From Zygnema cylindricum (lineage: Eukaryota; Streptophyta; Zygnematophyceae; Zygnematales; Zygnemataceae): a stretch of 38,431 bases of DNA. Within the stretch, counting starts at the first letter, position 1. Each line of letters starts with the position of its first letter. The position numbers and the translations under genes are program-made. This document shows, piece after piece, positions 11,259-36,343 of the stretch. The DNA lies in assembly GCA_037447655.1 (NCBI GenBank), contig JBBHKE010003085.1, forward strand, positions 1 to 38,431, given 5' to 3'. The notes below the pieces were generated by a model. The model saw only the letters and a list, made by a program, of their open reading frames with translations, ran no database searches and was not told where the DNA came from.

Positions 11259-11293
11259 GATTTTGCAGCAGGATACGATTGTACATTCTACGG

Positions 11294-12421: not shown

Positions 12422-12432
12422 ATCCCCCTCTC
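12422..12432 (-). other. Polypurine tract of element 1
   Basis: On the gene strand GAGAGGGGGAT lies immediately before the LTR start TGTTAG. This is the usual position of the plus-strand DNA primer of LTR retrotransposons. Confidence 0.8.
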
Positions 12433-12445
12433 AAAGTTGTAATCA

Positions 12446-12982: not shown

Positions 12983-14003
12983 GGCCTCCCCAATGAATCT
13001 TTTTAGGAGCTTGAGAAAATCGGCTCACAACAGAAACTGCGGCTGAAATATCCGGTCGCGTGGCCACACTTAAATACATTAAACTTCCAACGGCCTCACG
13101 ATAGGGCACGTGGACAGTTTCCTCCTCCTCAAATTTGCGATATTGTAGTTTGGAATCTAGTGGTGTCAAAACCGGCTTAGAATCCAACATAGCAAATTTT
13201 GTTAGTACTTCTTTACAATATTGCGCTTGCGACAATTTAATATCCCCATTATCGTACCTCAAAACTTCCACTCCAAGAATGTATCGTACTTCCCCCAAAT
13301 CTGTGACTTTAAAATGTAGACTTAGGTACTCCTTCAATTCCGCGATTCGTGTCAACTTGTCACATATCATCAAGAAATCATCCACGTAGACAGAAAATAT
13401 AATTTGATCTTCCCCCTCACCTTTCACGTAAACTCCAGAGTCTGAAACTGTTCGGACGAATCCAAATTCGGTAAGGACCTTGTGTAACCGTAAATACCAA
13501 GTCCGCGGTGCCTGTTTTAGTCCGTACAAGGACTTTCGCAGCCGCCATACCTTCCCCTCTTTCAACACTACTCCCTCCGGAACTTTCATATAAACCTCCT
13601 CCTCTAAGTCACCATTCAAGAACGCCGTCTCTACGTCCATTTGGTGAATGTGCTTTTTGCCGGCAACGGCAATAGCAATAATCATCCTCAATGAATCAAA
13701 TTTAACAACCGGTGCATATGTCTCCGTATAATCTATCCCCTCCCGTTGTTGAAAGCCCTTGCAAACTAGCCGAGCCTTATGTTTTACTACTTCCCCCGAT
13801 GCACCAGTTTTGGTTTTAAAAATCCACTTCGCATCAATAGCCTTTTTACCCTCCGGTAGGCTTACCTCCTCAAATGTACGGTTGTCAATAATAGATTGAA
13901 GTTCTCGCTCCCATGCCGGTTTCCAATGCTTCTCCCAATCGCATGATTTTCGTGCTTCCACATACGATTGTGGATCGCCCGGCTTATTTTCGCATAATGA
14001 TTG
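12888..14003 (-). pseudogene. Element 1 reverse transcriptase
   Basis: The frame continues from the TAG at 14004-14006. It contains the copia RT_Ty1-type domain: KWIFKTKTG, ARLVCKGFQQ, FLNGDLEEEVYM, SLYGLKQAPR and the catalytic YVDDFLMI, followed by LGEVRYILGVEV and YLSVATRPDI. All catalytic Asp residues visible in these motifs are intact. The domain copies retrotransposon RNA into DNA in the virus-like particle. The frame leaves register at IHWGGR near 12990 because of the extra G. Confidence 0.9.
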
Positions 14004-14669
14004 CTATAAAAGAAAATCATCCTCCCTCTCCGCCGAAATAAAATAATATGAATTTTCCACATTCCCCTTACCATCAAAAGAAAGACGAGCCGGTTTCTTT
14101 CCCCTATTTTCCCGCATACTCCTCCTCGGCTCAAATTCTTTCTCCGCCTTTGCCGGTTCCTCCTCAATAGTATTCGCTTCACTTGATTTAGAAGACGAAG
14201 ATTTCCTCGTGTCCGAAGACATTCGGGAATTTTCGCTTATCCAATCCCCACCAATGTTACCAAAATATACATTCTCCTTAATTTTACCTTTCCCCCTCTT
14301 AACATTGGAGGTGGAATCCGGCTCAATTTCCGAATCCGAACCCTCAATGTCATTAAGATCACCAATTTCAAATTCCTCATGGAAATCAAGATTAGAATTT
14401 CGATTAGCCGATCGAGAGATTGTGGATAATAAGTCCTCGTGAAAATCCACATTTCTTGACTCCTCAATGATATTACGAATCGGATCATAAACTCGATAAA
14501 GACTCCCTTTTTTCACTATATCCAACAAAATAACCACTCCAACTCCTCGATGCAAATTTACCTTTTCTTTTTTGTGCTTGAATATAAACCGACGCACGAC
14601 ATCCCCAAATCCGAATGTGGTGTAGAGTAGGCTTTCGCCCAAACCACAACTCATACGGAGTTTTATCAC
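14004..14669 (-). pseudogene. Element 1 integrase C-terminal linker
   Basis: About 220 codons joining the integrase core to RT. The YRVYDP and RNIIEESRNVDF segments match the typical copia GYSxxxKxYRVYDP region, and the rest is a Ser/Glu/Lys-rich linker. A shift in an A6G3 run near 14510 separates it from the integrase frame, and an in-frame TAG at 14004-14006 separates it from RT. The frame upstream of about 14510 overlaps the preceding ORF and is probably not read. Confidence 0.75.
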
Positions 14670-16122
14670 CCGAAACCGACGTGATTCGCCGATTGCAAAT
14701 ATAATTCGCCGTTAAAATTGCATCGCCCCATAAATGAATACTCCTCCCGGATCCGTGAACCATGGATCGTACCATTTTTTGAAGAGTACGATTTTTCCTC
14801 TCGGCAACGCCATTAGATTCCGGTGAGTAAGATGCGGTATATTGATGAGAAATTCCCCACTCTTTACAATAAGGATCAAAAGCAAGAAATTCCCCTCCGT
14901 TATCCGATCTAATAGATTTTAACTTTCTCTCACATTGCCTTTCGGCCATCACATGCCACTCTTGAAAGCGTAAAAATGCTTCGGATTTGTGTTTAAGTAA
15001 TATTACCCATGTGAAGCGAGAGAAGTCGTCCACCACCACCATAATATATTTGTTTCCACCAATCGTTTCCGGTTTCACGTCCCCACATAAATCAATGTGC
15101 ACAAGATCAAGCGGATGCTTAGATCGATGCATCGGATCCTTAGCCGGATGCGGCTTTCGGATTTGTCTCCCCTTACTACACCCCTCACATCCGTTAATTT
15201 TCTCTCCCGACGCCAAGTCTAATCCCCTTACGCTTCCATTTTTAATCATCCGTCGTAAACTCGTCTCCGATGTGTGACACATTCGATGGTGCCACAAGGT
15301 TAGATCACCTTTCAATTCGGAAATTTGCGAAATAACACCATTAGAATTTGGTTGGGATTTCGGCCGACGCCATTTTAGTCGACTATGCATAAAATCCGTG
15401 ACCTCTCCTTCACCTATTTGTACACCATCAGATCGTACAATTTTTATTGTGGAATCTCCGTACGCAAGTACACTGCCGCCCGCTCGTTGAATCTGCGGTA
15501 CACTGAGAAGATTCACTGAACCTTCGGGTAAGTACAAAACATTAGTTAATTGAGTTTGCGTAACTTTTTCTACCCCACGTGAGTCCAAACTTGGTAAATC
15601 CAACCGTACAGTACCCACGGTACTTATCGAAATCACTTGTCCACTTGCGACAGTGATTCGTTTTGGTACCGTGAGTTCGCGAAAATCGTCAAAGAGTGAA
15701 GCGTCGATACAAACGTGATGTGACGCTCCTGAGTCAATAATCCACTCTTTTTCGTGTAGCGTAGAACCTGCCAAAAGATCAAGCGATAGGTTAAGGGCGG
15801 AAAATATTTGCGCTTCGTCGCCTCCCTCAAAGTAATCGTCACCCATGAAGTGTCCTCCTCCTCTTCCATTGCGGCCTCCACGACCACCGCGGCCGCCAAG
15901 GCGACCGCCACCACGTCCACCGTATCGACCACCGCCGTCTCCTCTACCGCCGCCATTTCCTCTACCCGCCGCCGCCTCCTCTACCGCCCGCTCCTCCATT
16001 TTCAGCCTTTGAATAGCATTGGGGGCTAATATGGCCCCATTTCCCGCAAAAATGGCATTGACGCTCCTTGTCCGGGCAAGAAGCCGCCATGTGACCAAGT
16101 TTGCCGCACTGAAAGCAAGCAA
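14485..16122 (-). pseudogene. Element 1 protease and integrase
   Basis: Domains in order: a Gly/Arg-rich stretch, an aspartic protease with WIIDSGASHHVC, and a gag-pre-integrase segment with the zinc-binding HHxxC...CxxC pattern (LWHHRMCHTS, GCEGCSKGRQ). The integrase core follows with VHIDLCGD, RSDNGGEF and SNGVAERKNRT, which carry the D, D and E of the catalytic triad, and then FVGYSEK. Integrase inserts the cDNA into host DNA. The first residues overlap the end of gag in another frame. The switch falls in a GGN-repeat region, so it could be a frameshift mutation or a programmed shift. Confidence 0.85.
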
Positions 16123-16912
16123 TATTGGTTAGATCTGAATATCCGGGTTGGGAAGGAGATCTCCCGACCCTTTCGTGTCCTCTTCCCCCTCTTCCTCTCG
16201 GATTTCCACCTTTTCTACCTCCTCTTCCCCGAATATAATTTAGATCGGGCGTTTCTGGTGTCGTCGCATTGAGGGAACCGGTCGGTTGGGGTCCCCTCGA
16301 TGAGCTCGGACGATTCGCCTCGGTGGATTTGAGGAAAGTGATAATCGAATCCAAAGTGTTCGAATCCCTCGATAAAAGAATGTCCCTTAAATGTATCATT
16401 TTCTCCGGTAAGGCATGGATGAAGACCGATGCCTTATCACTCTCATCGATGAACTTTCCCAAGTTTGCGAGTTGCTCGATAATAATATTGAATCTCTTCG
16501 CGGCTTCATCGATCGACTCACTCGACTTGACCTTAAATGAGGTATAATCGGTATAAATGTGTTGTCCCTTATTTTGAAGACTCTTTTCGAAGTGATTCTC
16601 AAGAGCCACCCAACAATCATGGGCAAATCTTCGGGTAAGGAATAAATCATGTATAGAAGTGCTACATGATTGAAATAAACCGCCGATAGCGGAAAGATTT
16701 TTCTTCGTCCACACACGATAAGCTCTCCGATCTGAGGTAGGCATCTTGTCCACCCCTTTTACCACCTTCCAAAGCCGTTTCAATTTAAATTGACCTTTGA
16801 TATATTTCTTCCACGATTGATAATTTGTCCCATTGAAGATGACAATTTTGCCGGACATAGATTCAACCGGTTTCGTCCCCTTCACTCCAATCGTCAAGAT
16901 CAGAATCATCAT
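15962..16912 (-). pseudogene. Element 1 gag (UBN2-type, two zinc knuckles)
   Basis: Begins in the FNGTNYQSWKKY segment typical of copia gag. It continues with a helical capsid-like region (DCWVALENHFEK, EAAKRFNIIIEQL) and ends in two CX2CX4HX4C zinc knuckles (CFQCGKLGHMAASC and CHFCGKWGHISPQC) plus a Gly-rich tail. Gag packages the RNA in the particle. The N-terminal part lies in another frame upstream, so gag is interrupted near 16.9 kb. Confidence 0.85.
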
Positions 16913-17330
16913 CGATGGGAAGTTTTCCCTTTCGAATCAATTCCCTCGTCTCCTCCTCATCTCCTCCACCTCCTTCAGTATCGCCGATGCTTTGATCCGG
17001 AATCGGATCTCCGAATAATGGAGATCTAGTAACACGGTTTGCCTCGGAGATTCGCTGATCCACATAACGGAAAAGACCATCCATCAGTTTTTGGAGACGA
17101 TCTCCCATCGCGTCATCTTCCTCCTTCTTTTTCCCCTCATTCTCCTCTTTTTGACCGACCGGATCGATCGGAACGGTCTCCTCAAAAGTTTTGCCGGTGA
17201 AAGCAAATGGAGTTTCTACTTCCGGATCCGAAGATGATTCGGATGGATCCGGAGGATCCGGGTCCGGAGGTTGCGGAAATATCGGAGAAGGCATCAAAGG
17301 TGAAGGGGTATTTTTCTTCTTTCTCCCCAT
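16863..17330 (-). pseudogene. Element 1 gag N-terminal segment
   Basis: Starts at the ATG of MGRKKKNTPSP, about 50 bases after the primer-binding site. It encodes a Pro/Asp/Glu-rich, disordered-looking stretch ending in a DDWSEGDE run. It stops where the gag core frame takes over, overlapping it by 50 bases. It is probably the original gag start cut off by an indel; a separate short upstream ORF is the alternative. Confidence 0.6.
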
Positions 17331-17380
17331 AGCGACCAAACTAGCCACACTTCTACACCTCAAGGGAGCACACAAGCTCC

Positions 17381-17389
17381 GATACCAAT
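17381..17389 (-). other. Primer-binding site of element 1
   Basis: On the gene strand TTGGTATCGGAGC follows the LTR end CA within one base. It matches the 3' end complement of initiator Met tRNA (TGGTATCAGAGC) with one or two changes, the common primer of plant copia elements. Confidence 0.8.
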
Positions 17390-17891
17390 TGAAAAGATCT
17401 TACACAAAAAAAAATCAGAGTGCAAGACTACAGCGGAAGCATTAAAAAAAAAACATTTAGACAAGAGAAAGCTGTCCACGAAAGCCAATATATTTCACGG
17501 ACATTTTCTCCCATAAAAGATTAAGTTTTCCCTCCCACTAAGCTGCAGTATATAGTACTAAAAATGTAACGTTACACAACCAAACAACCAAAACAAACCA
17601 AACTATAAAGTACGCACTGAGCGCCTACAAATCAAATCGCGTCCATACGCGAAACAACATAAAAACTAGAGTACAACAAAAAATATGTACCTAAACGTAC
17701 AACCCAAACAAACCCGTACATAACAAACGACAATTGAACCTGGTTGTCGCAAAACCGAATCTACGCGAGACCAGGAATCTACGAAACGATCTAAAAGACA
17801 TAATGACGCCAAACCACCCACAAAGACAAAACGACAAATAATACGGCCGCGCGACATGCCACGACAGCCGATTACAACATTGAATCTAACA
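17390..17891 (-). repeat. 5' LTR of element 1, complete
   Basis: A 502-bp LTR starting TGTTAG and ending CTTTTCA on the gene strand. It abuts the host flank TAATGTACTTG directly. It shares about 300 bp at near identity with the truncated 3' LTR, suggesting a fairly recent insertion. Confidence 0.85.
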
Positions 17892-20842: not shown

Positions 20843-21015
20843 TGAAAGATAACAAACCAAACAAAATACACACACAACAAGAGTGTTTCTCCAATAATTC
20901 AATATATTAAACACAATGCAATTACAATTCCTTTATTTTCTCCATTTTACTTCTGACCTTTCTACGCCTCCTTAATAAGCTACGCCTCCATAAGATAGAT
21001 AAACCACTAAGACTA

Positions 21016-21094
<79 letters not shown>

Positions 21095-21422
21095 GACTAG
21101 AAACGTGTAAGAGTCAACGTGGTGAAACAAACGATCGACAAGTGCGAACCGACTTGAACTACACGGTACGACTAGAAAAGTCAACTACAAACCGGTTTAA
21201 ACCACACAGTACGACCAGAACTTATGTGAACCGAAACGACCAAACAAATTCCACATCACTTCTATAGTTGATTCAAACTTACGTGAAACGAAACGAAACT
21301 AATAATCAATTTCCACGTCACTGAATTTATCTAGCGACGAAACTACTTTGTCCCTGGTCATCGCTGCTTTAGCTACGAGAATGTCTCGTCTCTAAATGAG
21401 TTCTCAGTACTGATTCCTAACA
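20843..21422 (-). repeat. 3' LTR of element 2
   Basis: About 580 bp, starting TGTTAGGAATC next to the polypurine tract and ending TTTCA on the gene strand. It includes an expanded (TA)n block of about 70 bases at 21019-21091. It matches 25962-27154 once the MITE is removed. Confidence 0.85.
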
Positions 21423-21434
21423 TTCCCCCTCTTA
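21423..21434 (-). other. Polypurine tract of element 2
   Basis: AAGAGGGGGAA on the gene strand, directly before the LTR start TGTTAGG. Confidence 0.8.
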
Positions 21435-21456
21435 CTGAGATACTCAAAGCCCGCTC

Positions 21457-21849
21457 TTACTCTATGCCTACTAATTTCTTTCCCATTTCATATACTTCTT
21501 TTATTGCAACTTTGGTTAACATATCAGTAGCTTGTTCTTTTGCAGGGACAAACGCGAATTCAACTTTTTTTTCTGAAACAAAATCTCGAACAAAATGCCA
21601 CTGAATTTTAATGTGTTTAGTGCGTTTATGCAAAATAGGATTTTTACTACGTGGAATGGAGGACATGTTATCACTGAAAATTTGCATGCATTCTTTTTTC
21701 ACTCTAACCTTCGATAAAAATTCCTTAAAACACACAACACTCTTCGCAGCATGACGTGCGGCCATATACTCTGCCTCCGTAGATGAAAGTGCCACGGTAG
21801 GTTGCGAACGGGAATTCCACGAGATGGCTCCTCTTGCAAGTTGAAACAC
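21457..21849 (-). pseudogene. Element 2 RNase H remnant
   Basis: Contains SSTEAEYMAARHA, IFSDNMSSI and the IQWHFVRD histidine region of copia RNase H, then DMLTKVA. The N-terminal DADW segment lies in another frame upstream (about 21850-21905), so the domain is split. Confidence 0.8.
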
Positions 21850-21906
21850 ATATCTTGACGTAGACCTTCATGTATCATGATCCCCTCCATTGTGGGCATC
21901 ACAATA

Positions 21907-22860
21907 TCAATAACAACTCAAGCTCTCATCTTTCTTATAAACAATTCCAAGACTACGTGTTCCCGCCAAATACCTATATATTCTCTTCACCGCCTCCCAA
22001 TGTATTTTTTTTGGATTGCTACAATACCGACTAACCACACTCACTGCCGCACTAATGTCAGGCCTAGTAACGACACTTAAATACATCACGCTACCGACTG
22101 CCTCCCTATACGGAACATCAACCTCGAAACTTTTAACAAAGTTAGAAAAATTGCCACGAGGATCAAGGGGAGTTCCAATTGGCTTACAATCTAAGAACCT
22201 AAATCTTTCCAGTACCTCTTTTGCATATTGTTTTGGCTTAGCTTATTGTCTCCGTTCCTCCTCCTCTGAATCTCAATTCCCACAATCTATTGTGGATTTG
22301 TTAAGTTTGTAATTCTAAATGCTTCCGAAATTCAATCTTTAATATTAAAGTAAATCCAAGTTGTGAGAGATGGAAATGAAACCATCTACGTATACACTGA
22401 AAATTACCATATCCCAACCCTCTCCCCGAATATACACTCCACAATCTGCAGTAAGCCTCCTAAATCCCAAAACTAGTAAAATTTTGTGAAGTTTATGGTT
22501 CCAAGTTTTTGGTGCCTGCTTAAAACCATACAAAGCCTTCCACAACCTCCATACTTTACCATTCTTTCCAAGAACTCCCACTGGAATTTTCATATACACC
22601 TCCTCCTCTTATTCTCCATTTAAGAAAGTTATCTCTATATCCATTTGTTGGTTATACATTCCTTCCACCGCCGCCATTGCAATAATTACTCGCAAATAAT
22701 CAAACTTAACCACAGGAGTAAAAAAATTTGAATAGTCAATACCCTCTTCTGCTGAAAGCCCTTACATACTAACTTTGCCCTATACTTAAGAAATTCTCTT
22801 GAGGTTCCCGGTTGTGTGCAAAAAACCCACTTTAAGTCTATCACCTACTTACCAAAGTCA
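21907..22860 (-). pseudogene. Element 2 reverse transcriptase, broken, YVDG
   Basis: RT motifs are spread over several frames. VWRLWKALYGFKQAPKTW and VYVDGFISI lie in 22345-22599. YLSVVTRPDI and KKIHWEAVKRI lie in 21907-22089. The ARLVCKGF region near 22.76 kb is garbled. At 22381-22392 the catalytic motif is YVDG, so the second Asp required for polymerisation is lost. Confidence 0.8.
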
Positions 22861-22960
22861 AAACACCCATTTGCTTTCAAAATTTAACTCATTTATAAAT
22901 GTCCGTTTCCACTTCTCCTCCCATCCGTCTGAGTCTCTAACCTCTTGATATGATTGAGTA

Positions 22961-23608
22961 TCACCCAGACGATTTTCTGTAATTTATTTTCATAAGAGGA
23001 AGGATTCCGCCCTTCTTTTCTCTAAGTTCGGAGATTGCCCTCTGATAACTAGTTTGCTTTTTATATGACTGTCCTCGTAAGATTCGTTCCGGTGCCTTCC
23101 CTTTTGTTGATCTCTTACTTCTCCGTACGTCCTCTGCAAATTCCTTATCCAAATCACTGCTCTCAATCTTGTCATCGCTCTCCTTCTCTAAGGGTGTCTC
23201 TTCTAATGTCACGTTGTTTGTGTGAGTAGATGATTCCCTAATGACCTTTTCCCCTTGTGATTTGTTGCTTGTGGGCTTAGATGTTGGAACTTTTTTCAGA
23301 GTTTCCTCTACAAATTGCACATTTTTCTTTGTCCCTACCTCTATCAAGACTTCTTTTTCCTCCTCTCATGTGAATTTCTCATAATGACTCTCCTCCTCGT
23401 AATCTTGGGCCCGTTTAGACTCATTAGCTCTTTTCACCATCCATTCCAAATTTTCATTGGACTCCACATTTTTAGACTCTCGAACCCTTGTAGTAACGGG
23501 GTTATAAATTTGATACTGCATTGAATTGTCACTATACCCCACAAAGTATCCTTCCCATGACCGTGCCGCAAACTTCGGCTCCCGGTTTCTTTCCTCTACA
23601 TACCCCAT
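22961..23608 (-). pseudogene. Element 2 integrase C-terminal region and linker
   Basis: Two frames: 23366-23608 with RSWEGYFVGYS and YQIYNPVT, and 22961-23347, a Lys/Ser/Glu-rich linker with RRSKRSTKGK. These are the expected segments between integrase core and RT, separated by a frame break near 23.36 kb. Confidence 0.7.
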
Positions 23609-23612
23609 AACC

Positions 23613-24167
23613 TCACATCCCCAAATCCTTCAATGTTTTACCGTAGGCACTTGTCCACTCCAAAGGTCCTCCAGTGTTTTGTTGCCTAAAGCCGAGTTGA
23701 TTCTCCGTCTCTTGCAATGTCCGATTCTTCCTCGCTGCTATTCCATTCGAGTGTGGGGAATATAGAGCCATGAATTGTTGTTTAATCCGCGTCTCTTTGC
23801 AATATTCAGCGAACGTAAGAAATTCACCTCCACGGTCTGATCGTAATGCTTTTACTTGCCTCTCACTTTCCCTCTCAGCCATGACCACAAAATATTTCAA
23901 TGTCTCTAATGCCTCTGACTTTGCCTTTAAAAGATACACCCATGTTTTCCTACTGAAACCATCAACCATCACTATACTGTATTTATTTTTTCCAATGGTT
24001 TCTAGATGTATGTCACCACAAAGATCTAAATGGACTAGGTCTAAAGGGGAATTCGCCTTGAAATGAAGACCTTTCACCAGATGAGGCTTCCTTTTATGCT
24101 TCCTTTTTGTGTATCCTACACATCTGATGACCTTTTCTCTTGTTGTCACGTCTAGTCCTCGAACCAC
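23613..24167 (-). pseudogene. Element 2 integrase core, catalytic Glu lost
   Basis: Contains SPLDLVHLDLCGDIH, VMVDGFSRKTW, LRSDRGGEFLTF and HSNGIAARKNRT. Two catalytic Asp are present. The Glu expected in the AERKN motif is Ala, codon GCG at 23733-23735, one base from GAG. The frame then leaves register. Confidence 0.8.
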
Positions 24168-24355
24168 ACCATGAGAATCATCTCTTTGATATTACTCTCT
24201 AAAGTGTGACATATACGATGATGCCACAACATGAGGTCCTCCTTGTTGACCTCTGCCCAATGGAGGTGCCCTTCTTCCCCCGCCGTCCTATTTTCTGCTT
24301 TTCTCCAAATCAGCCTACTTTGCATATTTTTAGTTACAACACTCTATGCAAATGG

Positions 24356-24640
24356 TTATGTTATACTACTCAAAATGATTCTACCCCTTTCTATGCATGT
24401 GGCCTTTCCACCTTTCTTTTGAAGTTGTGGGACATTTAAGAGATTGATGCACCCTCCCAGATTATAAGACACATAATTCAAACGTACTCTATTGACTCTA
24501 GTTTTCTCATCCCTATCGTTTATCGGTAGTGTTCCCACTCAATCAATAACCATCATCGAACCATTAGCCACTATGATGGATTTTGGTATAGTGAGTTTTC
24601 TAATGTCACTGAATAGTCCTGGATCCGAACACTTCATGAA
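24356..24640 (-). pseudogene. Element 2 protease to pre-integrase remnant
   Basis: Weak similarity to the post-protease region of copia elements (IRKLTIPK, INLLNVPQLQ) in shifting frames. The DSGAS active site is not found upstream. Confidence 0.5.
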
Positions 24641-24990
24641 TTCATTTAACAGAACGAATAGATTTCTAGTTCATAGAAAGTGGTTCGCAAAACAAATACC
24701 GCGCATTTGTTTCGACGGCGAAAAAATACCGCGCATTTGTTTTCGAGGGCCAGAGGTGAAAGCCGGTTTTGATCAAATGGCCACGATAAGTGTCGAGATC
24801 GCGAAATAGGCGTTTTGGCAGTTTCCGGTCACCGCCACATCAAACGACACGTGGCACAACTACATTGGCTTGCGGCATCTCCGAAAAATATGGGAACAAA
24901 TCCGGATATGGCAGACGTCGACATTTTGGCCATGTCGTTCGATGCTCGTACAAAAAGTACTCCGACATCTGTATCTTTCTGAATTCAAGA
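24641..24990. other. Non-copia-like segment inside element 2
   Basis: This lies where the zinc knuckle and protease active site should be. It shows neither in any frame. It contains a 30-bp tandem pair (24696-24755, unit with ATACCGCGCATTTGTTT) and GC-richer sequence unlike its surroundings. It may be an insertion or replacement; I found no clear terminal repeats. Confidence 0.4.
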
Positions 24991-25149
24991 ATTCCCCTAA
25001 AGTTGTAAGCTCCTCCGTCATCCTCCTCTTGATAACTCGGATAAGATGACCCTTTGTTTTCCTCTTTCAATATTGCCTTCTCCTTCTCCTTACTCTTCAA
25101 GTGATTGACAACGTTTGATATTGTCGATTTCTCTCGCCCCTTGATGACC

Positions 25150-25935
25150 TTATTGGCTACCGCAAACTTGCTTGGAAGACTCCTCATATAAATAAACAAC
25201 CTCTCTTTTTATTGTAAGGAAGTTATCGAGTGAGTTTAGTTGTACGATGATGACATTAAACCGTTTGACTCCATCATCAAAGGACTCATTCTCCTTCATT
25301 TTAAACCCAATATACTCCTCAAAGAGATTATTTTCATTTGCCTCAAACCCTTTTTCAAACGCATTTTGCAAAGCGGTCCAACAATTACAAGCCATATCAT
25401 AAGTTAGAAGATGTTCATGCATACAACTAGTACAATTTTGTATTTGTGCGGTGGAGGTCGCCATATCTTTCTTGTCCCACTTCTTTGCTCCGGCTGGATC
25501 TACGGAAGGATCCGGTAGTGTTTCTTCCCCAATAACTATGTCCCAAATTTTTTTCGGTGTGAATGCTCCTCAAATGTATCGCTTCCAAATTGCATATTTG
25601 GAACCCATGAAGACGATGGTCTTATTAAACACTTTAAGATCATCATCTTCGCTCTCATCCTCTTCCTCATAAAGTTTATATTTCTCTTTCTTTTTCTTTA
25701 TTTTCTTTGAATTGTGTGAGTCTCCACTTACACCTCCATCTCCATCATCTCCTTGTGTTTTGAGAAACTCGTGAAAATGTTCAAACATCCCCTCGTCCAT
25801 CTTCACATTTTTCTCCCCCCATTCGTCAAACTCATCATATTGTGTCCTTGTAACTTCTCCTCCACTAACTCTTCCACTAGCTCCTCCACTAGGTTCCGCC
25901 AAGGATTTTTCTTTTTCCGCCATACCGGCAAGCAT
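25150..25935 (-). pseudogene. Element 2 gag remnant
   Basis: Two frames: 25570-25935 with an acidic N-terminus ending in FMGSKYAIWKRY, and 25150-25464 with DMACNCWTALQNAFEK and DDGVKRFNVIIVQL. These match the same gag segments in element 1. A frame break lies near 25.5 kb and the zinc knuckle is missing. Confidence 0.75.
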
Positions 25936-25947
25936 TGCCAGTTACCT

Positions 25948-25961
25948 GCCCCGATACCAAT
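25948..25961 (-). other. Primer-binding site of element 2
   Basis: AATTGGTATCGGGGC on the gene strand at the LTR end, an initiator-Met-type site nearly the same as in element 1. Confidence 0.75.
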
Positions 25962-26756
25962 TCAAAGATAAGAAACCAAAAAAAATACAAAATACACACA
26001 CAACAAGAGTGTTCCTCCAATAATTCAATATATTAAACACAATGCAATTACAACTCCTGTACTTTCTCCATTTTACTTCTGACCTTTCTACGCCTCCTTA
26101 ATAAGTTACGCCTTTATAAGATAGATAAACCACTAAGGGTATGATTACATCAGGAGGTTTATTTAATAGTACGGACAGTAAAAATTATGTACAGGCATCG
26201 GTTACATCAGGTATTGTCTGTAAATAAGTTTTTACATACTTGTTCTGATTTGAGTGATTCCACGTAAGTTAACGATCAAATCTCTAAAATCGTCAAAGAT
26301 TTGGAAACCGATCATTTTCGTATGGAAATCCGTACTTGTGTATTATGTACGTGTACTTCGCAAGTTAACCTTGCCAATGTACCTCAGATGTCTCCTTCAA
26401 CACGTGACTTTAGGGAGGTGTGAAAATTTTCATTTTTCATCGACGCACGTGTCTATCGTCGACGTGTAGTGAATTGCCTGGTTCTGCATTGGTGAACCCA
26501 CCTCACGGTACAGAGGCAGATGGAGCGGTAGCTTCGCAGATGAAGACCAAAATATAATCAGACGGTCGATGTCTTCTCCCGAAACCTTGGAGAATCTTAA
26601 TCTTATTATCTATAATATTGTTTTCAAGAAACTCACAAAATTACAATACCGTATGGTACGGGCAAGTACAAAGTTATGTATTAAACCTCACTTTTCGTCT
26701 GATGTAACCATACCCTAAGACCAAACAAATATACATATATATAAATATATATATCA

Positions 26757-26802
<46 letters not shown>

Positions 26803-27154
26803 ACACGACTAGAAAAGCGTAAGAGTCAACGTGTGAAACAAACGACCGACAAGTGCGAACCTACTTGCACCACATGGTACGTCTAGAACTTACGTGAACC
26901 AAAACAACCAAACAAATTCCACGTCACTTCTATAGTACGTTTCAAACTTAACTAAAACAAAACGAAACGACCAAACAATTTCAACGTCACTTCTATAGTA
27001 CAACACAAACTTAAGAGAAACGATACTAAACGAACAATCAATTTCCACGTCACTTCAAATATCTAGCGACAAAACTACTTCGTCGGTGATTTTCGCTGCT
27101 TTATCTACGAGAATGTCTCCTCACTAAATGAGTTCTCAGTACTAATTCCTAACA
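25962..27154 (-). repeat. 5' LTR of element 2, with nested MITE
   Basis: Matches the 3' LTR (20843-21422) except for the 579-bp insertion at 26137-26715 and a different microsatellite: (TA)n followed by (TG)n here, (TA)n only in the other. Without the MITE it is about 610 bp. Confidence 0.85.
26137..26715. mobile_element. Tourist/Harbinger-like MITE
   Basis: Begins GGGTATGATTACATCAG and ends with the inverse of GGGTATGGTTACATCAG (16 of 17 match). It is flanked by TAA on both sides (26134-26136 and 26716-26718). The other LTR shows the empty site CACTAAGAC, proving a 3-bp TAA duplication. A TWA duplication and GG-type ends are the PIF/Harbinger signature. There is no transposase; a 71-codon frame inside is not convincing. 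Confidence 0.9.
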
Positions 27155-28315
27155 TGACCTTCCCTCTCTCTTTGCCTGTCCGTGTCCCTCTCCCTCTCCC
27201 TCTCCCGCTCACTCTCCCTTGCCCTTTCTCTTCCACTCTTCCACTCGTTCACCCTCGCCCTCTCTCTCTCTCTCCCACTATCCCTCTCCCATTCCCTCTC
27301 CCTCTCCCTCTCCCTTTCTCATTCCCTTTTCCTCCCCCTCTCCTTCACCCTATCCCTCTCCCTCTTCTTCTCCCTTTCCTTTTGCCTCTTTCTCTTCCTC
27401 TCCCCCTTCATCTCAAACACCCTCACCCACGCCCTCTCTCTCTCTTGCTCTCCCTCTCCTTCTACCTCTCCCTCTCTTTCTTCCTCCCTCTCTCCCTCTC
27501 CTTCTCCCTCTCCCTCTCCCTCTCCCTCTTCTTCTCTCTCTCCTTTGTCTTCGCTTTTTCCCTCAAACTCCCTCTATCTCTCGCCCTCTCCCTCTTCCTC
27601 TCCCTCTTCCTCTCCCTCTCCCTCTCTCTATCTCTCTCCTTCTCTATCTCTCCCTCTCCCTCCCCCTCACCCTCTCAACCCCCCTCCCTCTCCCCCTCCC
27701 ACTTTCCTTCTTCCTCACCCTCTTTCTCTCCATTCCCCTCTCCAACTCTGGCTTTTATTTTCCAATTTCCTCTTCCTCTCACTCTCTATCTTCCACTTTC
27801 CTTCTCCCCTGACATCTCCCTCTCCCTCTCTCTCTTTTTCTCGCCTTCATCTTCTCCCTCGACCTGGCTCTACACCCTCTCTCTCTCCCAATTTCTCACC
27901 ATCTCCCTCCCCCTCTCTCTCTTTTGCCCATTCTCTTCCACGCGCAATCGCTTTGTATCGCCCCCTTCCTCTCCCTCTCAATATCCCTCTCCCTTGTCCT
28001 CTGTAACACCTTTGCCCTCGCCCTCTCCGCTCTCTCTCGGCCTCTCTCCATTTCCCTCTCCCTCTCTCTCCCTCTCCCTCTCCTTCTCCCTCTCCCTCTC
28101 CCTCTCTCTCCCTCTCAATCTCCCGCTTCCCTCTCCCTCACCCTCTTTTCTCCCTCTCCCTCTCCAACTCCAACTTTAGCTTTCACTCTCCATCACCCTC
28201 TTCCTCTCACTCTCTGTCTTCCGACCTCCTCCTCCCTTTCTCTCTCACTCTCTCCCTTGTCCTAGCTCTCACCCTCCCTCTCTCTCTCCATGTCCCTCTT
28301 CCTCTCCGCTCACTC
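27155..28315. repeat. Polypyrimidine array, right part
   Basis: CTCTCC-type array continuing the 18868-20842 array after element 2, same strand bias. Its long Ser/Pro/Leu frames are not genes. It ends just before the LTR of element 3. Confidence 0.9.
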
Positions 28316-28331
28316 TCGCGTGCCTTTTTAT

Positions 28332-29303
28332 TGTTCTATGAGAACTGGTGCAGGTGGAGCTGCAGCAATAGTAATAGAAGTAGACATACTTAAGCAAAAG
28401 CTTCACAAGAATTCCTCACAAACACCACTTTTTGACACACTATAAAACCTGACTCACGGATCCAATGACCTCAAGAATTGGCACGTAAACAGACTAGCAT
28501 ACACACAGTTAATTCCCAAATTATAGAAAAAGTGACCCAGTAAACCATAAGATATGAGAGCTGCAAGTTTCCCAAAAACTGCCTTTAAAATTCCCATATT
28601 CCCAAAACTAGATTCCATATAACTCTAAGTAATAAACTATAGACACTGAGTGAGCTCCTACTGCTCATTAGCCAATCAGGTGATAGTATCCTAAATAGAA
28701 GTATTGTACTGTAGTACGACAAGGTACTCTAATGTACTTCCAAAAACCTAATTGCAACTACCCTAAAAACTAAATAGTGAAACACTATTTGATAAAGCAC
28801 TAAGCAACAAAACTATTTCTTCATGGCTCTAGCTCCCTATCAAGCCTTCAGTGACTACAACAAGTGTGGGGGCTTGGAGAAGGGAGTTAGGGACAGACTG
28901 CCTTTGCTCTTTTTCTATAAAGACCTAGAAAATACTCAAATATCAACAACCACGTCATCCTTGGTCCCCGCTCAATTTCTAGCTGTCAGTGTGATCGTAA
29001 TCAACGTCTAGTATTTTACTTTATATAATTGTAATCCCATATGTATGGTTCATTTTTCGCCCGCCCGATTTCCCGAATTCACTCGTTCGATAACTGCCAT
29101 GTGTCCATGTCCATTCCGCTTTCCCTGCATAGTCTGAAAGGTTGACGCGTGTCTATGTGATCGTACACATACTCTTAGAGTAACTTCTTTACTATCACAC
29201 TATTTGAGGTAAGTATTACACCAATCTTTAATCCAAAAATATTCTATGTTAGAAAACTCCCCTCACAGCTCTATCTACTAAGGATAATGCTTTAAAATAA
29301 TCA
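28332..29303 (-). repeat. 3' LTR of element 3
   Basis: 972 bp, from TGATTATTTT next to the polypurine tract to GAACA on the gene strand. It is homologous to 33414-34394 except for an unrelated central block (28813-28949). Confidence 0.8.
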
Positions 29304-29314
29304 TTCCCCTAAAG
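29304..29314 (-). other. Polypurine tract of element 3
   Basis: CTTTAGGGGAA on the gene strand, abutting the LTR start TGATT. Confidence 0.65.
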
Positions 29315-29339
29315 CTTAAGACTCACTTATTCACTCAGC

Positions 29340-29950
29340 CCAATAGCCTTTCTGCAAAACTGTAATTTAGGTGCAGGTAAAGCTTTTGTTAGCATATCTG
29401 CAACCATATTTTCATCAGGTAAGTAGCACAATTCTATCACTTTGGCAAGCACTTTTTCTTAGACAAAATGCAGTCTGACATCGATCTGTTTACTCTTAAA
29501 GTGGTGGCTAGGATTGGAGGCAATGGCAATAGCTGCCTGGTTGTCACACCTGATGACTTGAGGACCAGTTTGCATGTGTCCCAATTCCTCCAAAGGAGCT
29601 TTTACCCATAGGAGTTCCTCGAGGGCAGAACTTGGTGCCATATATGCTGACTCCATAGTTGATTGAGCGGTGACTTTCTGAAGTTTTCTGCTCCAGCAGC
29701 AAGTTCCGTTTCAAATCTGCAAGACAAAACCAGTGGTTGATTTCCTGCTGGGTATGTGGCCATAACTCCCATCGCTCTAGGTTTGCAGCTTGACTTCCCC
29801 TCCTCCAAGGACAAGTTTAAGATTCTGCGTCATTGCCAGATACCTAAGAACTCTTTTTGCAGCTTCCCTGTCTGCCTATTTTGGATTTTGCAGACTTCTT
29901 CTTAAGGCTCTCACAACAGCTGCTACATCGGGCCTCGTGCAGTTCATAAA
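29340..29950 (-). pseudogene. Element 3 RNase H remnant
   Basis: Copia RNase H segments in several frames: SRKSTTGFV, ESAYMAPSSALEELLW, VIRCDNQAAIAIA, HFKSKQIDVRLHF and DMLTKALP. The usual DADWAGD start is degraded. Stops at several points make it inactive. Confidence 0.8.
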
Positions 29951-30013
29951 GTAGATGAGACTACCAACTACCTGTCTGTATGGTTTTGAGGCCATGAAAT
30001 CCTCCTCCCTTGA

Positions 30014-30832
30014 CTATAAGATCTTATCAACTAGAATACCATAATCAGAATCAACTCCTTCTAATTTCTCTCTGAACTCCATAGAAGTGACACATTCTTT
30101 TGCCTCCTTCATATCAAAATTTTCAAGCATGGAACCAATAGCCTCTTTTTGAGTTAACATTATCTGTTTTTTATTTCTATCTCTCTCTACTTGTATCCCT
30201 AAAATGTATTTGGCCTCACCGAGGTCATGCATCTCAAATCTAGACCTTAAGGCTCTCTTGATGCGATTTATTTCGTCCATAGATTTTCTAATAAGCAGCA
30301 GATCATCTACATAAACAACAATATAAAATACACCATCCTCCCCTCGCAAAATATACACAGAATGATCTGAACTGATTCTTTTAAAGCCTAATTTAGTGAG
30401 GAATTCATCTAACTTTAGGTTCCACTGTCTAGGGGCCTTTTTCAGCCCATACAAGGATTTCATCAGTTTGCATACTAGTTTTTTTTTTTCTTTCTCTACA
30501 TACATTTGTAGTTGCTGCATATAAATAGTTTCTTTAAGCTCTCCATGAAAGAAAGTTATTTTAACATCCATTTGATACACTTCCATGTTTTCAATTACAG
30601 CTAGACTTAATAGGACTCTGACAGTTGGAAACCTTACTACCGGAGATAAAGTCTCCTCAAAGTCAATTCCTTCTTTCTGATTGTAGCCTTTTCCTACAAG
30701 TCTCGCTTTATATCTTTCAATGGTGCCATCCGGATTTAGTTTCAGTTTGAATACCCATTTGCTGCCGATGGCTTTCTGGTCCGGAGGAAGATCAACCAAC
30801 TCCCACGTTTGAGCTTCCATTATGGATTTCAT
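30014..30832 (-). pseudogene. Element 3 reverse transcriptase
   Basis: The longest intact piece of this element, 272 codons. It shows KWVFKLKLNPDG, KARLVGKGYNQ, YQMDVKITFFHGEL, KSLYGLKKAPRQW and an intact YVDDLLLI, then LGEAKYILGIQV. It stops before the end of the domain. The following region (29.95-30.01 kb) continues in another frame with YRQVVGSLIYF. Confidence 0.85.
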
Positions 30833-31378
30833 TTCATCGTTTGCCGCCTCAATCCACTAGTTTCTTTCGGGTGAAGAGAAGGCCTCCCGAATAGTCTTAG
30901 GTTCTCCCGGGTTAGCAGAGTTGGCAAAGTGTGATCCAGATTGTAGACGGCTGTTAGATCTCCTTCCCCTCGGAAATTCTGAGGCTGAAACCGATGGATG
31001 CCTGCCATTCTTTGTTGATCTTGTGACTTGTTGCTTTTGCTCTTGGACCGGTTCAGCTTGCTCCATCTAAGTCTGAAGAGGAACTTAAGGATCTGAAGAT
31101 ACTGGATGTGCAAGAGGTTGCTAAACTGTCGGAAAATAAACTATTTTGTGTGTATCAAAAATAAGATATTCTTGTGACTTTTCCTCAGCCTGTTTTTCTG
31201 TCATGCTAAATAGATATACCGAAACTTCCTCATCCTTTATAATAATATTTCTAGACACAGTTACTTTTTGCTTATCAAAAACATATACTTTGTAGACTTT
31301 TGAATTTTCATCATAACCCATAAGGATACCCGGAAGACCCTTTGGTTCCATTTTCCAAGTATTCGGTGAAGTGTTCAA
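30829..31378 (-). pseudogene. Element 3 integrase tail and linker remnant
   Basis: 31121-31378 holds LPGILMGYDENSKVYKVY, the typical segment after the integrase core. 30829-31113 is a degraded Gln/Ser-rich linker leading to RT. Stops separate the pieces. Confidence 0.65.
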
Positions 31379-31559
31379 AACAACGCATTTACTTCCAAAA
31401 ACTCTAAAATGACTAACATCAGGTTTTTTACCTGTCCAAATTTCAAATAGTGTAGTACTTACCGACCTAGAACCAATTCTATTTTTGATATAAACTTCTC
31501 AGTTAAGGGCCTAAGCCTAGAATTTCAAATCTATATTTTTATCTGCTAGCATAAATCTA

Positions 31560-31866
31560 GCACATTCTGTAATGGTCCTGTTTAATCTTTCCGAAACACC
31601 ATTCTGCTAATAAGTGTAAGGGACAGTGAGCTGGCGACTTATACCCTCATCTAGCAGAAAGTTTTGGAATTCTTTTGACATATACTCTCCTCCATTGTCT
31701 GATCTGAGTTCCAAAATTGGAACACCATGCAGTATTTCCTCCCAAATTTTGTAGTGTTTGAAGTGTCTGAACACTTCACTCTTTTCTTTCATGAAGTAAA
31801 ATTTAATGAATCTGGAGAAGTCATCAGATACGTTACCATAAAACAAACCCCCTCAGCAGAGGGCAC
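31560..31866 (-). pseudogene. Element 3 integrase core
   Basis: Frame 31607-31846 has DDFSRFIKFYFMK and ILELRSDNGGEYMS. After a TAG the QNGVSERLNRT segment follows, so the second Asp and the Glu of the triad are visible. The first Asp region near 31.87 kb is disrupted. Confidence 0.75.
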
Positions 31867-31959
31867 TCGAGCAGGTCTCAAAACATCCGAGTGAATTAGT
31901 TGCAAGACTTTTGTACATCTATGATCCGATTCCTGTGGAAAATGCAGCTTATGTGTCTT

Positions 31960-32913
31960 TCATAAAAAGCAGCCATCACTGGTTTTGACTGGGTGATCTG
32001 TCAAAGAAAAACCCTCTACTTTCCTAGCTTTCACCATTTTTAGTAAACTGTCATAATGAACATGTCCTAGCCTCTTATGCCATAATTCATTTTCAAATAT
32101 TACACCAGAGTAGATAACATCATTTTCCGTAGAATCACCCATGTCCACGCGATAAATTTTGCTTTTATCTCTAGTTCGTGTCACTGCTATCTTTCCTAGC
32201 TTGCTTACAACCTGCCTTTCCCCTTTAAGGGTGACTTCAAAACCTTTGCTTTCAACCAAAGAAGTGGAAAACATATTGTTTTTGAAGTCCAGAACATATA
32301 AGACATTATGAAGTATTCCTCTACAGACTTTCCTCCTACATCTACTAGCAATGAAACCATCACGATGAGCACAAGTCTGGACAATCATGCCACAAGCATA
32401 GTAGATATTATTTGCAGTTGTTGTCTGCAAATTTGTAAAAAGTCCCTTGTTCCAACACATGTGGGTAGATGCCCCTGTGTCCATGATCCATCCGGCGTCC
32501 TTTAAGCCCTCCATTGGTGCCGCCATTGCAAATAACTTCGAGTTATTGTGCTCATTAAAGGTGAAAGATTCATCTTCCAGAGTGACAGATGAAAAAAACA
32601 ATGAGTTGTTTTGTAACTGATGACTAGAAAAGCCCTGGTTAAACTGACTTTGCTGCCAACCTGACCTATATAATCGTGTCTCATTTGCCTTTTTGAGTTT
32701 AGGACAGTATCTATATCCATGACTTCTCTCTGAACAGTAAAAACAAGCTGTAAAAGACTGTCTATTCTGCCCTTGATTAAACAGTTTAAATTGACCCTGA
32801 TTTGGATAAAATTGAGTCCTTTGCTGATTAAACTGATTTCTCTTCTTGTTAAACTCACCTTTCCTATCAAAATCCGTGTTAAGGGCCTCTACTTGCTTTT
32901 CTCCATTAAGCAT
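31960..32913 (-). pseudogene. Element 3 gag end, protease, pre-integrase
   Basis: A 317-codon frame with a single zinc knuckle (CFYCSERSHGYRYC, the CX2CX4HX4C pattern). It continues with an aspartic protease WIMDTGASTHMC and a pre-integrase segment (ELWHKRLGHVHYDSL). Gag and pol are in one frame here, unlike element 1. It ends in a stop at the pre-integrase CxxC region. Confidence 0.8.
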
Positions 32914-33395
32914 CTTTGGGCTCCTCGCTGAATAATATTGCTAACTGACGTCCGGCCAATTTTATCATGCTTTTTTTCGGTTCCGGGCATGCTGGAGATC
33001 TCTACGTCAGGGGCGATGGACTGAGGAAAAGACCATTCCGAGCATGTGCATGGTAAGAGCTTTGAAGTTATCTTAGCGTATGGCGGTATTTCCCCAGCAG
33101 TCCCAAATTTGCTGCGTACCCGTAGAAGTTCCTCTTGAACCTTTACCCTCATCGCCGGGCAGGTGATGTCCAGATGTCAATCGCCTTTTTCATCTTGATT
33201 CATGACATAACCATGTTCTCCGAAAGACATGGTTTGAGAGCATTCGGAGCTTGCGAATTCTTTTTCGCCCAAGTTGGATCAGTTTTATCAGGTGATCCAT
33301 CCAAAATTTCCAGTAAACCTGCAGTTTCAAAGTAAGACTCAACCATGTCTGCCTAGTTAGCATATTTCAATCTATTAATCACAGGAATTCTTGGA
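32914..33395 (-). pseudogene. Element 3 gag N-terminal remnant
   Basis: Degraded copia gag start with MVESYFETAGLLEIL and DPTWAKKNSQAPNAL-like segments, interrupted by several stops. Confidence 0.6.
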
Positions 33396-33396
33396 G

Positions 33397-33413
33397 ACAG
33401 GCCCATAACCTAT
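33397..33413 (-). other. Degenerate primer-binding site of element 3
   Basis: ATAGGTTATGGGCCTG on the gene strand directly after the LTR end GAACA. It aligns to the initiator-Met-type ATTGGTATCAGAGCCTG with about four differences and one gap. Its position at the LTR edge is the main support. Confidence 0.55.
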
Positions 33414-34394
33414 TGTTCTATGACATCTGGTGCAGGTGGAGCTGCAGCAGTAGTCGTAGAAGTAGACATACTTAAGCAGAAGCTTCACAAGAATTCCTCA
33501 CAAACACCACCTTTTGACATAGTATAAAACCTGACTCACAAATCGAATTACCCCAAAAATTGGCACATAATCAAACTAACAGCCACACTTTTAATTCTTA
33601 AAATTATAGCATAAGTGGCCCAGTAAACCATAAAATATGAGAGCTACAAGTTTCCCAAAAACTGCCTTTTAATTTCCCAAATTCCCAAAACTGGACACCA
33701 AATATTTTTACTAAGTCCTAAACTTATACTCTTAGATTGTGTCTACTGCTAGCAAACAAATCAACAAATAACATCTAGCACTGTAGTACTGAACTATAAT
33801 GTGACAAGGTACCATAATTGTACGTTACTACACCACCGTTGCTTTGAAATAGACTACAGCTAGCCTAAAACTAAATAGTGAAATACTATTTCCTAATCCA
33901 CTAAGCAACAAAATCGTGTTCTATCAGGTATTTACAAATTGAAGTCGTACACCAAAAGTGGCTTGCTTAGTCAGCAACTGTTGATGTGTCCAGCCTGCTG
34001 TGGTATGTTTTGTACGAATATCTCGGGTGCTTAGGAAGCACCACGTCATTCGTGGCCCCCACTCAATTTCCAACGGTTAGTCTGATTGTAATCAACGTCT
34101 GGTATTTTACTTTATACAATTGTAATCCCAGATGTCCGGTTCATTTTTCGTCCGACCAATTTCCCGAATTCACTCGTCTGATAGATGCCATGTGTCCATG
34201 TCCATTTCGCTTTCCCTGCATAGTATGAAAGGTTGACGCGTGTCTATGTGATCGTACAAATACTCTTAGAGTAACTTCTTTACTATCACACTATTTGAGG
34301 TAAGTATTACACCAATCTTTAATCCAAAAATATTTGAAGATACAAATCTCCCCTCACAGCTCTATCTACTGAGGATAATGCTTTTAAAACAACA
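33414..34394 (-). repeat. 5' LTR of element 3
   Basis: About 980 bp, homologous to 28332-29303. Its central block (33914-34040) is unrelated to the same place in the other LTR. The outer edge is uncertain by about three bases because of an ACAACAACA run. Confidence 0.8.
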
Positions 34395-35325: not shown

Positions 35326-35725
35326 GCATATCACCACAGATGCATTCAGAAGGAGATAAATGGTCATGTAAGACAAACATCTCAGTAATGCATAGGGAAT
35401 CAAAGCATAGGGCTTATGATGCAAAGGAGAAGCTTTTAGAAGAGAACACATTTTCACACATTATTTAGTAAGAGTACAAAGGTGTAGAATTTATAGACAT
35501 TTCACATCATTACATTCAGTGTACAGATTAGCTATAGAGAGTAGTTAAAAACTCAGCTTTACTCTCATTTGAGATTAGGGATTAGAAGTGTCTAACCTTC
35601 ATTGTAATCTCTTTGGGGGCTCACCTTAGCTTTCGCTAAGTTACCCCTTGACTAGTTTTCTATTATAAGCTGAATTACAACTATCTTGTCTATTCTAATG
35701 TTGATTTGATTGTATCATCTGTATT
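35326..35725. other. Intergenic, nothing recognised
   Basis: AT-leaning sequence with no long frame, inverted repeat or RNA gene seen. It leads into the short pyrimidine array that hosts the TRIM. Confidence 0.5.
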
Positions 35726-35753
35726 TCTCTCCCACCCTCTCTCCCCCTCTCTT

Positions 35754-35975
35754 TGTTAAAATTTGTAGAATCCGCGGATAGAATGGACGATCCCATAATA
35801 GGGATTGATGAGCCGGCCAAGATTTAAACCAGGGACCTTTCACTTTAGCTACAAACGCACTACAACTGTGCCACCAACTCAAATGTTATGCTGGTGGGTC
35901 CAATTTTATATAGGTTTTAGTGTGGATTATTCCCACAATTCCAGTTATCGATCCCACGTTTCACGTATGTCAACA
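35754..35975 (-). repeat. 3' LTR of the TRIM
   Basis: 222 bp, TG...CA ends on the gene strand, same length as 36042-36263 and clearly similar over its whole length with scattered substitutions. It contains a tRNA-like segment at 35813-35876. Confidence 0.88.
35813..35876 (-). promoter_or_regulatory. tRNA-like pol III promoter in TRIM 3' LTR
   Basis: A-box TGGCACAGTTGT (35862-35873) and B-box GGTTTAAATCT (35820-35830), 43 bases start to start, as in tRNA genes. The D-arm stem GCAC/GTGC around a 7-base loop is intact. The B-box has T where C is usual, so it may be weaker than the copy in the other LTR. Confidence 0.6.
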
Positions 35976-35986
35976 CCCCCCCACGA
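35976..35986 (-). other. Polypurine tract of the TRIM
   Basis: CTCGTGGGGGGG on the gene strand, ending at the LTR start TGTTGAC. Confidence 0.8.
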
Positions 35987-36030
35987 GTGGTAGCCGGTCA
36001 TAATTGTCCATGTAAACCTGGTCCCCCTAG

Positions 36031-36041
36031 CTTTGATACCA
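36031..36041 (-). other. Primer-binding site of the TRIM
   Basis: TGGTATCAAAG on the gene strand starts at the base after the LTR end TTAACA. It differs from the initiator-Met complement TGGTATCAGAG at one base. Confidence 0.85.
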
Positions 36042-36263
36042 TGTTAAGATTCCTAGAAACAGGGGATAGAATGGACGATCCCAATCAAAGGATTGATGAT
36101 CCGGCCAAGATTTGAACCAAGAATCTTTCACTTTAGATCTGAAAACACTACAACTATGCCACCAGCTTACATGTTATAGTGGTGGGTCCAATATTATATA
36201 GGTTTTTATATGGATTTTTCCCACAATTCAAGATATCCATCGCATGTTTCACGTACGTCAACA
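36042..36263 (-). repeat. 5' LTR of the TRIM
   Basis: 222 bp with TG...CA ends. It carries the better-kept tRNA-like segment at 36101-36163. Confidence 0.88.
36101..36163 (-). promoter_or_regulatory. tRNA-like pol III promoter in TRIM 5' LTR
   Basis: A-box TGGCATAGTTGT (36150-36161) and B-box GGTTCAAATCT (36108-36118), 43 bases start to start. The B-box fits GGTTCRANNCY. The D stem is wobble-paired, the T stem is weak and the anticodon loop is irregular, so it is a tRNA-derived promoter rather than a working tRNA gene. Transcription by pol III is inferred. Confidence 0.65.
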
Positions 36264-36304
36264 CTCTCTCCCTCCCCCTCTCTCTCTCACTCTCTCTTCC
36301 TCTC

Positions 36305-36343
<39 letters not shown>
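36264..36343. repeat. (CT)n microsatellite hosting the TRIM
   Basis: CT repeats continuing the short pyrimidine tract at 35726-35753 that lies on the other side of the TRIM. Followed by a TATATA block (36345-36389) and more CT-rich sequence to about 36535. Confidence 0.85.

Follow-up and report, generated by a model that had tools for sequence, protein, structure and literature searches.

A TRIM family of Zygnema with a tRNA-like sequence, probably serving as a promoter, in each LTR

A 510-bp element and its neighbours in the window

The window analysed here, a stretch of 38,431 bases from Zygnema cylindricum, contains a short repeat-bounded element with the following features.

35754..36263, minus strand: whole TRIM element, 510 bp (repeat comparison, genome family)
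36042..36263, minus strand (reads 36263-36042): 5' LTR, 222 bp, used as genome query
35754..35975, minus strand (reads 35975-35754): 3' LTR, 222 bp, 82.4% identical to the 5' LTR
35976..36041, minus strand (reads 36041-35976): internal region (centre), 66 bp
36026..36041, minus strand: primer-binding site (PBS) TGGTATCAAAGCTAGG, written TGGTATCAAAGC, adjoining the end of the 5' LTR and matching 14 of 16 positions of what we take to be the initiator tRNA-Met site
35976..35984, minus strand: polypurine tract GTGGGGGGG, immediately 5' of the 3' LTR
35749..35753, plus strand: left target-site repeat CTCTT
36264..36268, plus strand: right target-site repeat CTCTC, matching the left one at 4 of 5 positions
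36097..36168, minus strand: tRNA-like sequence of the 5' LTR, 72 nt, LTR positions 96-167 (Rfam RF00005, 27.7 bits, below the gathering score of 29; E = 0.0013, computed on the 611 bases 35700-36310)
35809..35880, minus strand: tRNA-like sequence of the 3' LTR, 72 nt (Rfam RF00005, 34.1 bits, gathering score 29; E = 2.3e-5, computed on the same 611 bases)
36151..36161, minus strand: A box of the 5' LTR, TGGCATAGTTG (box pattern scan)
36109..36118, minus strand: B box of the 5' LTR, GGTTCAAATC (box pattern scan)
35863..35873, minus strand: A box of the 3' LTR, TGGCACAGTTG (box pattern scan)
35821..35830, minus strand: B box of the 3' LTR, GGTTTAAATC, consensus minus one base (box pattern scan)
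36194..36200, minus strand: 5' LTR TATA-like box (TATATAA), located 26-32 nt upstream of the tRNA-like unit (family U3 conservation)
35906..35912, minus strand: TATA-like box of the 3' LTR (family U3 conservation)

The preliminary description had presented a complete element of two equal LTRs around a 66-bp centre, with a primer-binding site and a polypurine tract exactly at the LTR edges, a near-matching 5-bp target repeat, and A and B boxes 43 nt apart in each LTR. All of this is borne out. The two LTRs are spaced 288 bp from start to start, TGGTATCAAAGCTAGG follows the 5' LTR directly, GTGGGGGGG directly precedes the 3' LTR, and the element reads TGTTGAC at its 5' end and TTAACA at its 3' end on the minus strand. 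A replication protein could not be encoded in so short a centre. The element thus has the features by which a TRIM is recognised, namely two direct LTRs, a total length below 1000 bp, no coding region, and a PBS and polypurine tract at the LTR edges. The target repeat of this copy is weak evidence when taken alone, since it matches at four of five positions and lies within CT-rich sequence.

With the B-box pattern GGTT[CT]RANNC, which was loosened to take in the 3' LTR of this copy, exactly two A and B box pairs were found on both strands of the window, one in each TRIM LTR. Markov-simulated windows (n = 50) contained 0.12 such pairs on average and one at most. No tRNA was reported by ARAGORN on the whole window or by Rfam on the whole window at the gathering threshold, and the tRNA-like unit of the 3' LTR did not form an exact cloverleaf on folding. 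The comparison with 5S rRNA and Cassandra that had been suggested gave no Rfam 5S match within 35700-36310 at E values up to 10, so the mark of a Cassandra element was not found there. The copy is decayed, as seen from its LTR identity, two TTTT runs and one imperfect B box, and it is an old one.

Three Copia-like elements lie in the same window. The first (12119-17891, minus strand) has end repeats of 303 bp at 12119-12421 and 17590-17891 with 99.3% identity, gag-pol reading frames at 12446-16936 and an initiator-type PBS (TGGTATCGGAGC, 17387-17372, minus strand), and is a recent insertion. The two older ones (20845-27155 and 28329-34388) have repeat pairs of approximately 78-91% identity and broken reading frames; a PBS, TGGTATCGGGGC (PBS-like TGGTATCGGGGCAGG), is found in the former at about 25959 on the minus strand. 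An exact search for TGGTATCA had suggested that the Copia elements of the window are without a TRIM-type PBS. This was rejected, as two of the three have a PBS of the same primer class as the TRIM, starting TGGTATCGG. The LTRs of these two have no match to the TRIM LTRs. The ten best matches of a Copia protein of the window have 31-38% identity, and the named matches among those listed include many flowering plants, Adiantum, Riccia, Closterium and several insects, a spread that gives no placement of the host. The window also contains a direct duplication of 1.6 kb (6818-8369 and 9717-11295, 92% identical, 2.9 kb apart) and kilobase-long CT-rich degenerate simple repeats at 18.9-21 kb and 27-28.3 kb, which give rise to long spurious plus-strand reading frames.

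The family in the host genome

The 353-Mb assembly (2689 contigs) was searched with three parts of the element. The 5' LTR gave at least 82 matches, a count that covers fragments as well as the pair in the window itself (40 of 285 candidates scored), the internal region at least 40 with 91-100% identity, itself included (40 of 112 candidates scored), and the tRNA-like part alone at least 41 (40 of 660 candidates scored). A set of 90 loci, from which one viral-contig locus was excluded, yielded 66 groups of adjacent pieces along with 90 full-length LTRs when identical sequences were counted once.

Complete LTR-internal-LTR elements make up 23 of these groups, the others being broken, single, partial or tandem. 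The two LTRs of a complete element are 81.8-100% identical, with the window copy second most diverged and two copies (L010 and L015) at 100%. Perfect 5-bp target duplications flank 17 of the 23; L015 has identical LTRs, yet no target repeat. A lone full LTR was seen at six places, four of them with perfect duplications, and one of the remaining two (L078) seems to continue into PBS-like sequence. Two loci are tandem LTR-internal arrays, L004 with three LTRs and L012 with four, and either array has a perfect duplication at its borders. The PBS variants TGGTATCAAAGCCAGG (16 occurrences), TGGTATCGGAGCCAGG (8) and TGGTATCAGAGCCAGG (4) match 15, 15 and 16 of the 16 positions, respectively, of the initiator tRNA-Met site presumed above, and the commonest purine tract is CTCGAGGGGGGG (n = 27). 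The family has dispersed in the manner of LTR elements.

Two findings had been named in the preliminary description as speaking against its reading: genome copies with the tRNA-like part absent or not conserved, and two independent SINEs without shared ends and target duplications. The genome search and the alignment of copies gave neither. The tRNA-like part is present and conserved in the copies, so that a TRIM with a tRNA-like unit containing A and B boxes in each LTR is supported. Two adjacent SINEs, with no LTR element at all, would account for a tRNA-like head in each repeat. They would not account for the TGTTG...TAACA-type ends that complete copies have in common, for a PBS and polypurine tract exactly at the edges, or for dispersed copies with identical LTR pairs and target duplications of fixed length. 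Moreover, 30 loci found by the tRNA-like part were examined from the at least 41 places; 29 lie in LTRs of the family, one belongs to a second TRIM, and no SINE was among them. This explanation is hardly conceivable, and is already refuted by the structure of the family.

Some other sequences were noted in these loci and in the assembly. A reading frame at L076:1889-2476, a locus with a TRIM copy, matches TrbI/VirB10 (Pfam PF03743, 88.4 bits) and is possibly bacterial DNA in the algal assembly, through transfer or contamination. Dynamin-like reading frames (Pfam PF01031/PF00350) occur near TRIM LTRs at L072:384-1133 and L073:1537-3072, and the latter runs into the LTR. A group I intron (L114:770-1148, 71.3 bits) lies near the 3' end of a small-subunit rRNA gene, where such introns are common in zygnematophyte algae and not confined to them. 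Pieces of chlorophyll a/b-binding genes gave 88 matches in the assembly, which points to a phototroph within the green lineage or near it, probably a streptophyte alga. One of these proteins had the multi-domain LHCI-2 9vfj as its top match in the PDB (435.7 bits summed over two stretches), followed by the plant-type light-harvesting proteins 7xqp_a (356 bits) and 6kac_Y (326 bits), presumably from a moss and from Chlamydomonas, respectively. Multi-domain light-harvesting proteins occur in euglenids. The RuBisCO large subunit was not found in the assembly, an absence to be expected of an assembly without the plastid genome.

Conservation and fold of the tRNA-like unit

Conservation was assessed with one non-identical LTR per locus (n = 55, mean pairwise identity 0.903). 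The mean majority frequency is 0.917 for U3 positions 1-95, 0.946 for the tRNA-like part and 0.966 for the stretch downstream, so the tRNA-like part is not the best-conserved section of the LTR within the family. Within U3, conservation peaks at the TATA box, in the 8-base windows beginning at positions 64-65 (0.99), with those at positions 35-37 close behind (0.98). The A box TRGYNNRNNNG is found in 50 and the strict B box GGTTCRANNC in 40 of the 55 LTRs; where both occur (n = 36) they are spaced by 43 nt in 28 and by 44 nt in six.

Rfam was run on 20 loci picked from the 90 with a bias towards young copies, and each of them had at least one tRNA match (34 in total, scoring 40.1-58.4 bits). 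Not all of their LTRs gave a match, e.g., one of four in L012. The tRNA-like unit of the young copy L010 forms an exact cloverleaf on its own (-26.7 kcal/mol), and that of L027 forms the same with a D loop one base longer. Across the 52 copies that could be aligned (three of the 55 were dropped for length), 97% of the stem cells are paired. One D-stem pair is C-G in 40 copies and T-A in 12, which is a two-sided change. Other variants preserve the pairing as well, among them G-T to A-T (14) and G-C to G-T (12), and the only frequent variant that breaks it is A-C at the first acceptor pair (5); these counts are from related copies and might represent few events.

An alternative fold, in which U3 positions 74-95 pair with the tRNA-like part, can replace the cloverleaf (in L010, -31.3 kcal/mol when the leader is included, against -26.7 for the tRNA-like part alone). 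We do not claim such leader pairing, because 33 to 46 of 500 shuffled leaders did equally well in six copies.

With the standard code, ARAGORN called a tRNA in 45 of the 55 LTRs, 27 as Lys(CTT) and 18 as Pyl(CTA), and such LTRs therefore inflate tRNA gene counts. These calls, together with the complete cloverleaf of young copies, are what one would expect of a selfish cluster in which the LTR is a working tRNA gene spread by recombination. We consider this very improbable. Of the 52 copies, 28 have the anticodon CTT and 24 have CTA, but G occupies loop position 33 in 50 of them (A in one, T in one), and since U33 is to our knowledge universal in working tRNAs, a translating tRNA is unlikely. 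The best match among 20 genomic tRNAs (of 63 listed, no tRNA-Val among the 20) is tRNA-Arg(CCT) with just 50 of 72 positions; a tRNA-Val may be the donor. A TTTT terminator is not a fixed feature of the family, either in the 55 LTRs, 46 of which have no TTTT after the tRNA-like part, or in the 23 complete elements, and the marks of dispersal are those of LTR retrotransposition. TTTT is not significantly avoided, as 18 of the 23 complete elements are without it and shuffles are comparable (for three copies, 421-467 of 1000 sequences were free of TTTT after dinucleotide shuffling and 161-241 of 1000 after plain shuffling). Given G33 and the lack of a fixed terminator, the tRNA-like unit looks like a promoter or structural element and not like a working tRNA gene.

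The second TRIM found through the tRNA-like part (locus L081) belongs to a different family. Its LTRs lie at 1095-1320 and 1378-1623 around a centre at 1321-1377, with the target repeat TGAGG on both sides and the PBS TGGTATCGGAGCCAGC. One of its two tRNA-like units scores 39.1 bits in Rfam, and ARAGORN called a tRNA-Gln(CTG) on the whole locus and none on the two LTRs cut out. When its 5' LTR was aligned with the L010 LTR, the tRNA-like part agreed at 65 of 72 positions, U3 at 63 of 89 and U5 at 32 of 51, and gaps fell solely outside the tRNA-like part. The difference between the tRNA-like part and the rest gave Fisher p values of 3.3e-4 (L010), 1.1e-4 and 6.5e-5 (two other copies), the three copies being mutually related and compared with a single L081 locus. 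This one-locus comparison is our best evidence that selection may keep the tRNA-like unit across family divergence.

The same comparison bears on whether the unit is a passenger. The element could be an ordinary Pol II TRIM whose LTR has captured a SINE or tRNA pseudogene, with the TATA box driving Pol II. The box is conserved and equally expected of a Pol II LTR promoter, and from its place 26-32 nt upstream of the tRNA-like unit it would direct a Pol II start to about the point where that unit begins. The absence of a fixed Pol III terminator agrees with this, as does the conservation of the tRNA-like part within the family, which is about that of its downstream flank. A passenger should decay, however, and here the tRNA-like part outlasts U3 and U5 between two TRIM families, while frequent stem variants keep the pairing in all but one case. 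Upstream TATA-like elements can also be part of plant tRNA genes themselves. We therefore regard a Pol II TRIM with a passenger as unlikely, if still worth weighing.

Proposed replication and relation to known systems

The window element very probably belongs, as a decayed member, to a multi-copy TRIM family of the kind known as Helenus, in which each LTR contains a tRNA-derived unit. The tRNA-like sequence of each LTR probably serves as promoter, and we infer that the family is transcribed by Pol III. The A and B boxes of the 5' LTR and the TATA box about 30 nt upstream would recruit RNA polymerase III, and transcription would begin close to the 5' end of the tRNA-like unit (approximately LTR position 96). 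As no terminator is fixed in the family, the transcript may read through into the 3' LTR or beyond. With such a start and such read-through both RNA ends would have an R region in common, consisting of the tRNA-like unit and U5, and minus-strand transfer would take place across this region with the tRNA-like unit in it.

Reverse transcriptase would be primed by initiator tRNA-Met. The tRNA-like unit as its own primer was considered and rejected, since by inspection the PBS does not fit the unit's 3' end and does fit initiator tRNA-Met, as we take that site to be. Reverse transcriptase and integrase would be given in trans by an autonomous element, probably of Copia type, whose integrase would produce the 5-bp duplications. 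Copia-type enzymes are favoured because two of the three Copia-like elements in the window share the primer class. An autonomous partner was not found among the 30 places examined of the at least 40 with an internal region, all of which are bordered by a family LTR on one side or both.

Young copies keep the full cloverleaf despite the loss of U33, which raises the question of whether the sequence is held as DNA promoter boxes only or also as a folded RNA with a role in end formation, packaging or replication. As no terminator is fixed, one can imagine that RNase P and tRNase Z act on the cloverleaf and thereby define where the genomic RNA begins and ends; R would be the tRNA itself and the unit both promoter and RNA structure. 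In that case selection would act on the cloverleaf as RNA. We think this improbable.

The preliminary description had considered a tRNA-type counterpart of Cassandra to be not well described. This did not hold, as TRIMs with tRNA-derived sequences have been published under the name Helenus, with the proposed term TRIMp3, from fungi, animals and one plant, Selaginella moellendorffii (Kojima, 2024; PMC10886601). A literature search for Helenus from 2024 on and for tRNA-type TRIMs gave, as judged by listings, no second description besides this one. Pattern scans for relatives elsewhere gave 1, 0, 0 and 0 matches in viral contigs, the single match being a locus without a tRNA call, two bacterial 19-base matches in a collection of genome contigs, which were taken as chance, and none in plasmids.

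The window family is a new family of the published Helenus kind. It has a tRNA-derived unit with boxes A and B in each LTR, and the 5-bp target duplications given for plant and fungal Helenus in PMC10886601. The sole plant family described there, Helenus-1_SMo of Selaginella, has an LTR of 120 bp and an internal region of 85 bp, compared with 222 and 66 bp here, a comparison made by description only. Unlike Helenus, for which the account in PMC10886601 states that predicted structures generally do not support tRNA function, the window family keeps the full cloverleaf in young copies. An intact fold is nevertheless not unique to the Zygnema family, since seven bivalve and 15 fungal Helenus families are listed in the same account as predicted to encode a tRNA. 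Pol III transcription of Helenus is likewise a prediction in that account, not a demonstration. According to a published proposal, Helenus arises through insertion of a SINE into the LTR of a TRIM.

Cassandra, as described in PMC7215508 and PMC10853983, resembles the window family in its small-RNA-derived Pol III promoter in each LTR (a role that is predicted here), its TGGTATCAGAGC-type PBS and its tandem arrays, the last described in PMC7215508. It differs in having a 5S rRNA promoter and conserved terminators, whereas the window family has a putative tRNA-type A/B promoter and no fixed terminator. Tandemly arrayed TRIMs are known in plants from PMC4717578, the main text of which does not contain the word tRNA. 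The Ajax TRIMs of PMC10886601 also have a small-RNA-derived LTR unit and 5-bp target duplications, but the unit is a partial 5S rRNA and they come from two nemerteans. The tRNA-derived SINEs (SINE2) share the tRNA-type internal Pol III promoter, as proposed for the window family, but lack LTRs, PBS and polypurine tract and move by target-primed reverse transcription; the window TRIM has all three, together with the fixed-length 5-bp duplications of its family. Within the green line, TRIMs with a presumed tRNA promoter are thereby known from a second lineage, with young copies whose LTRs are identical.
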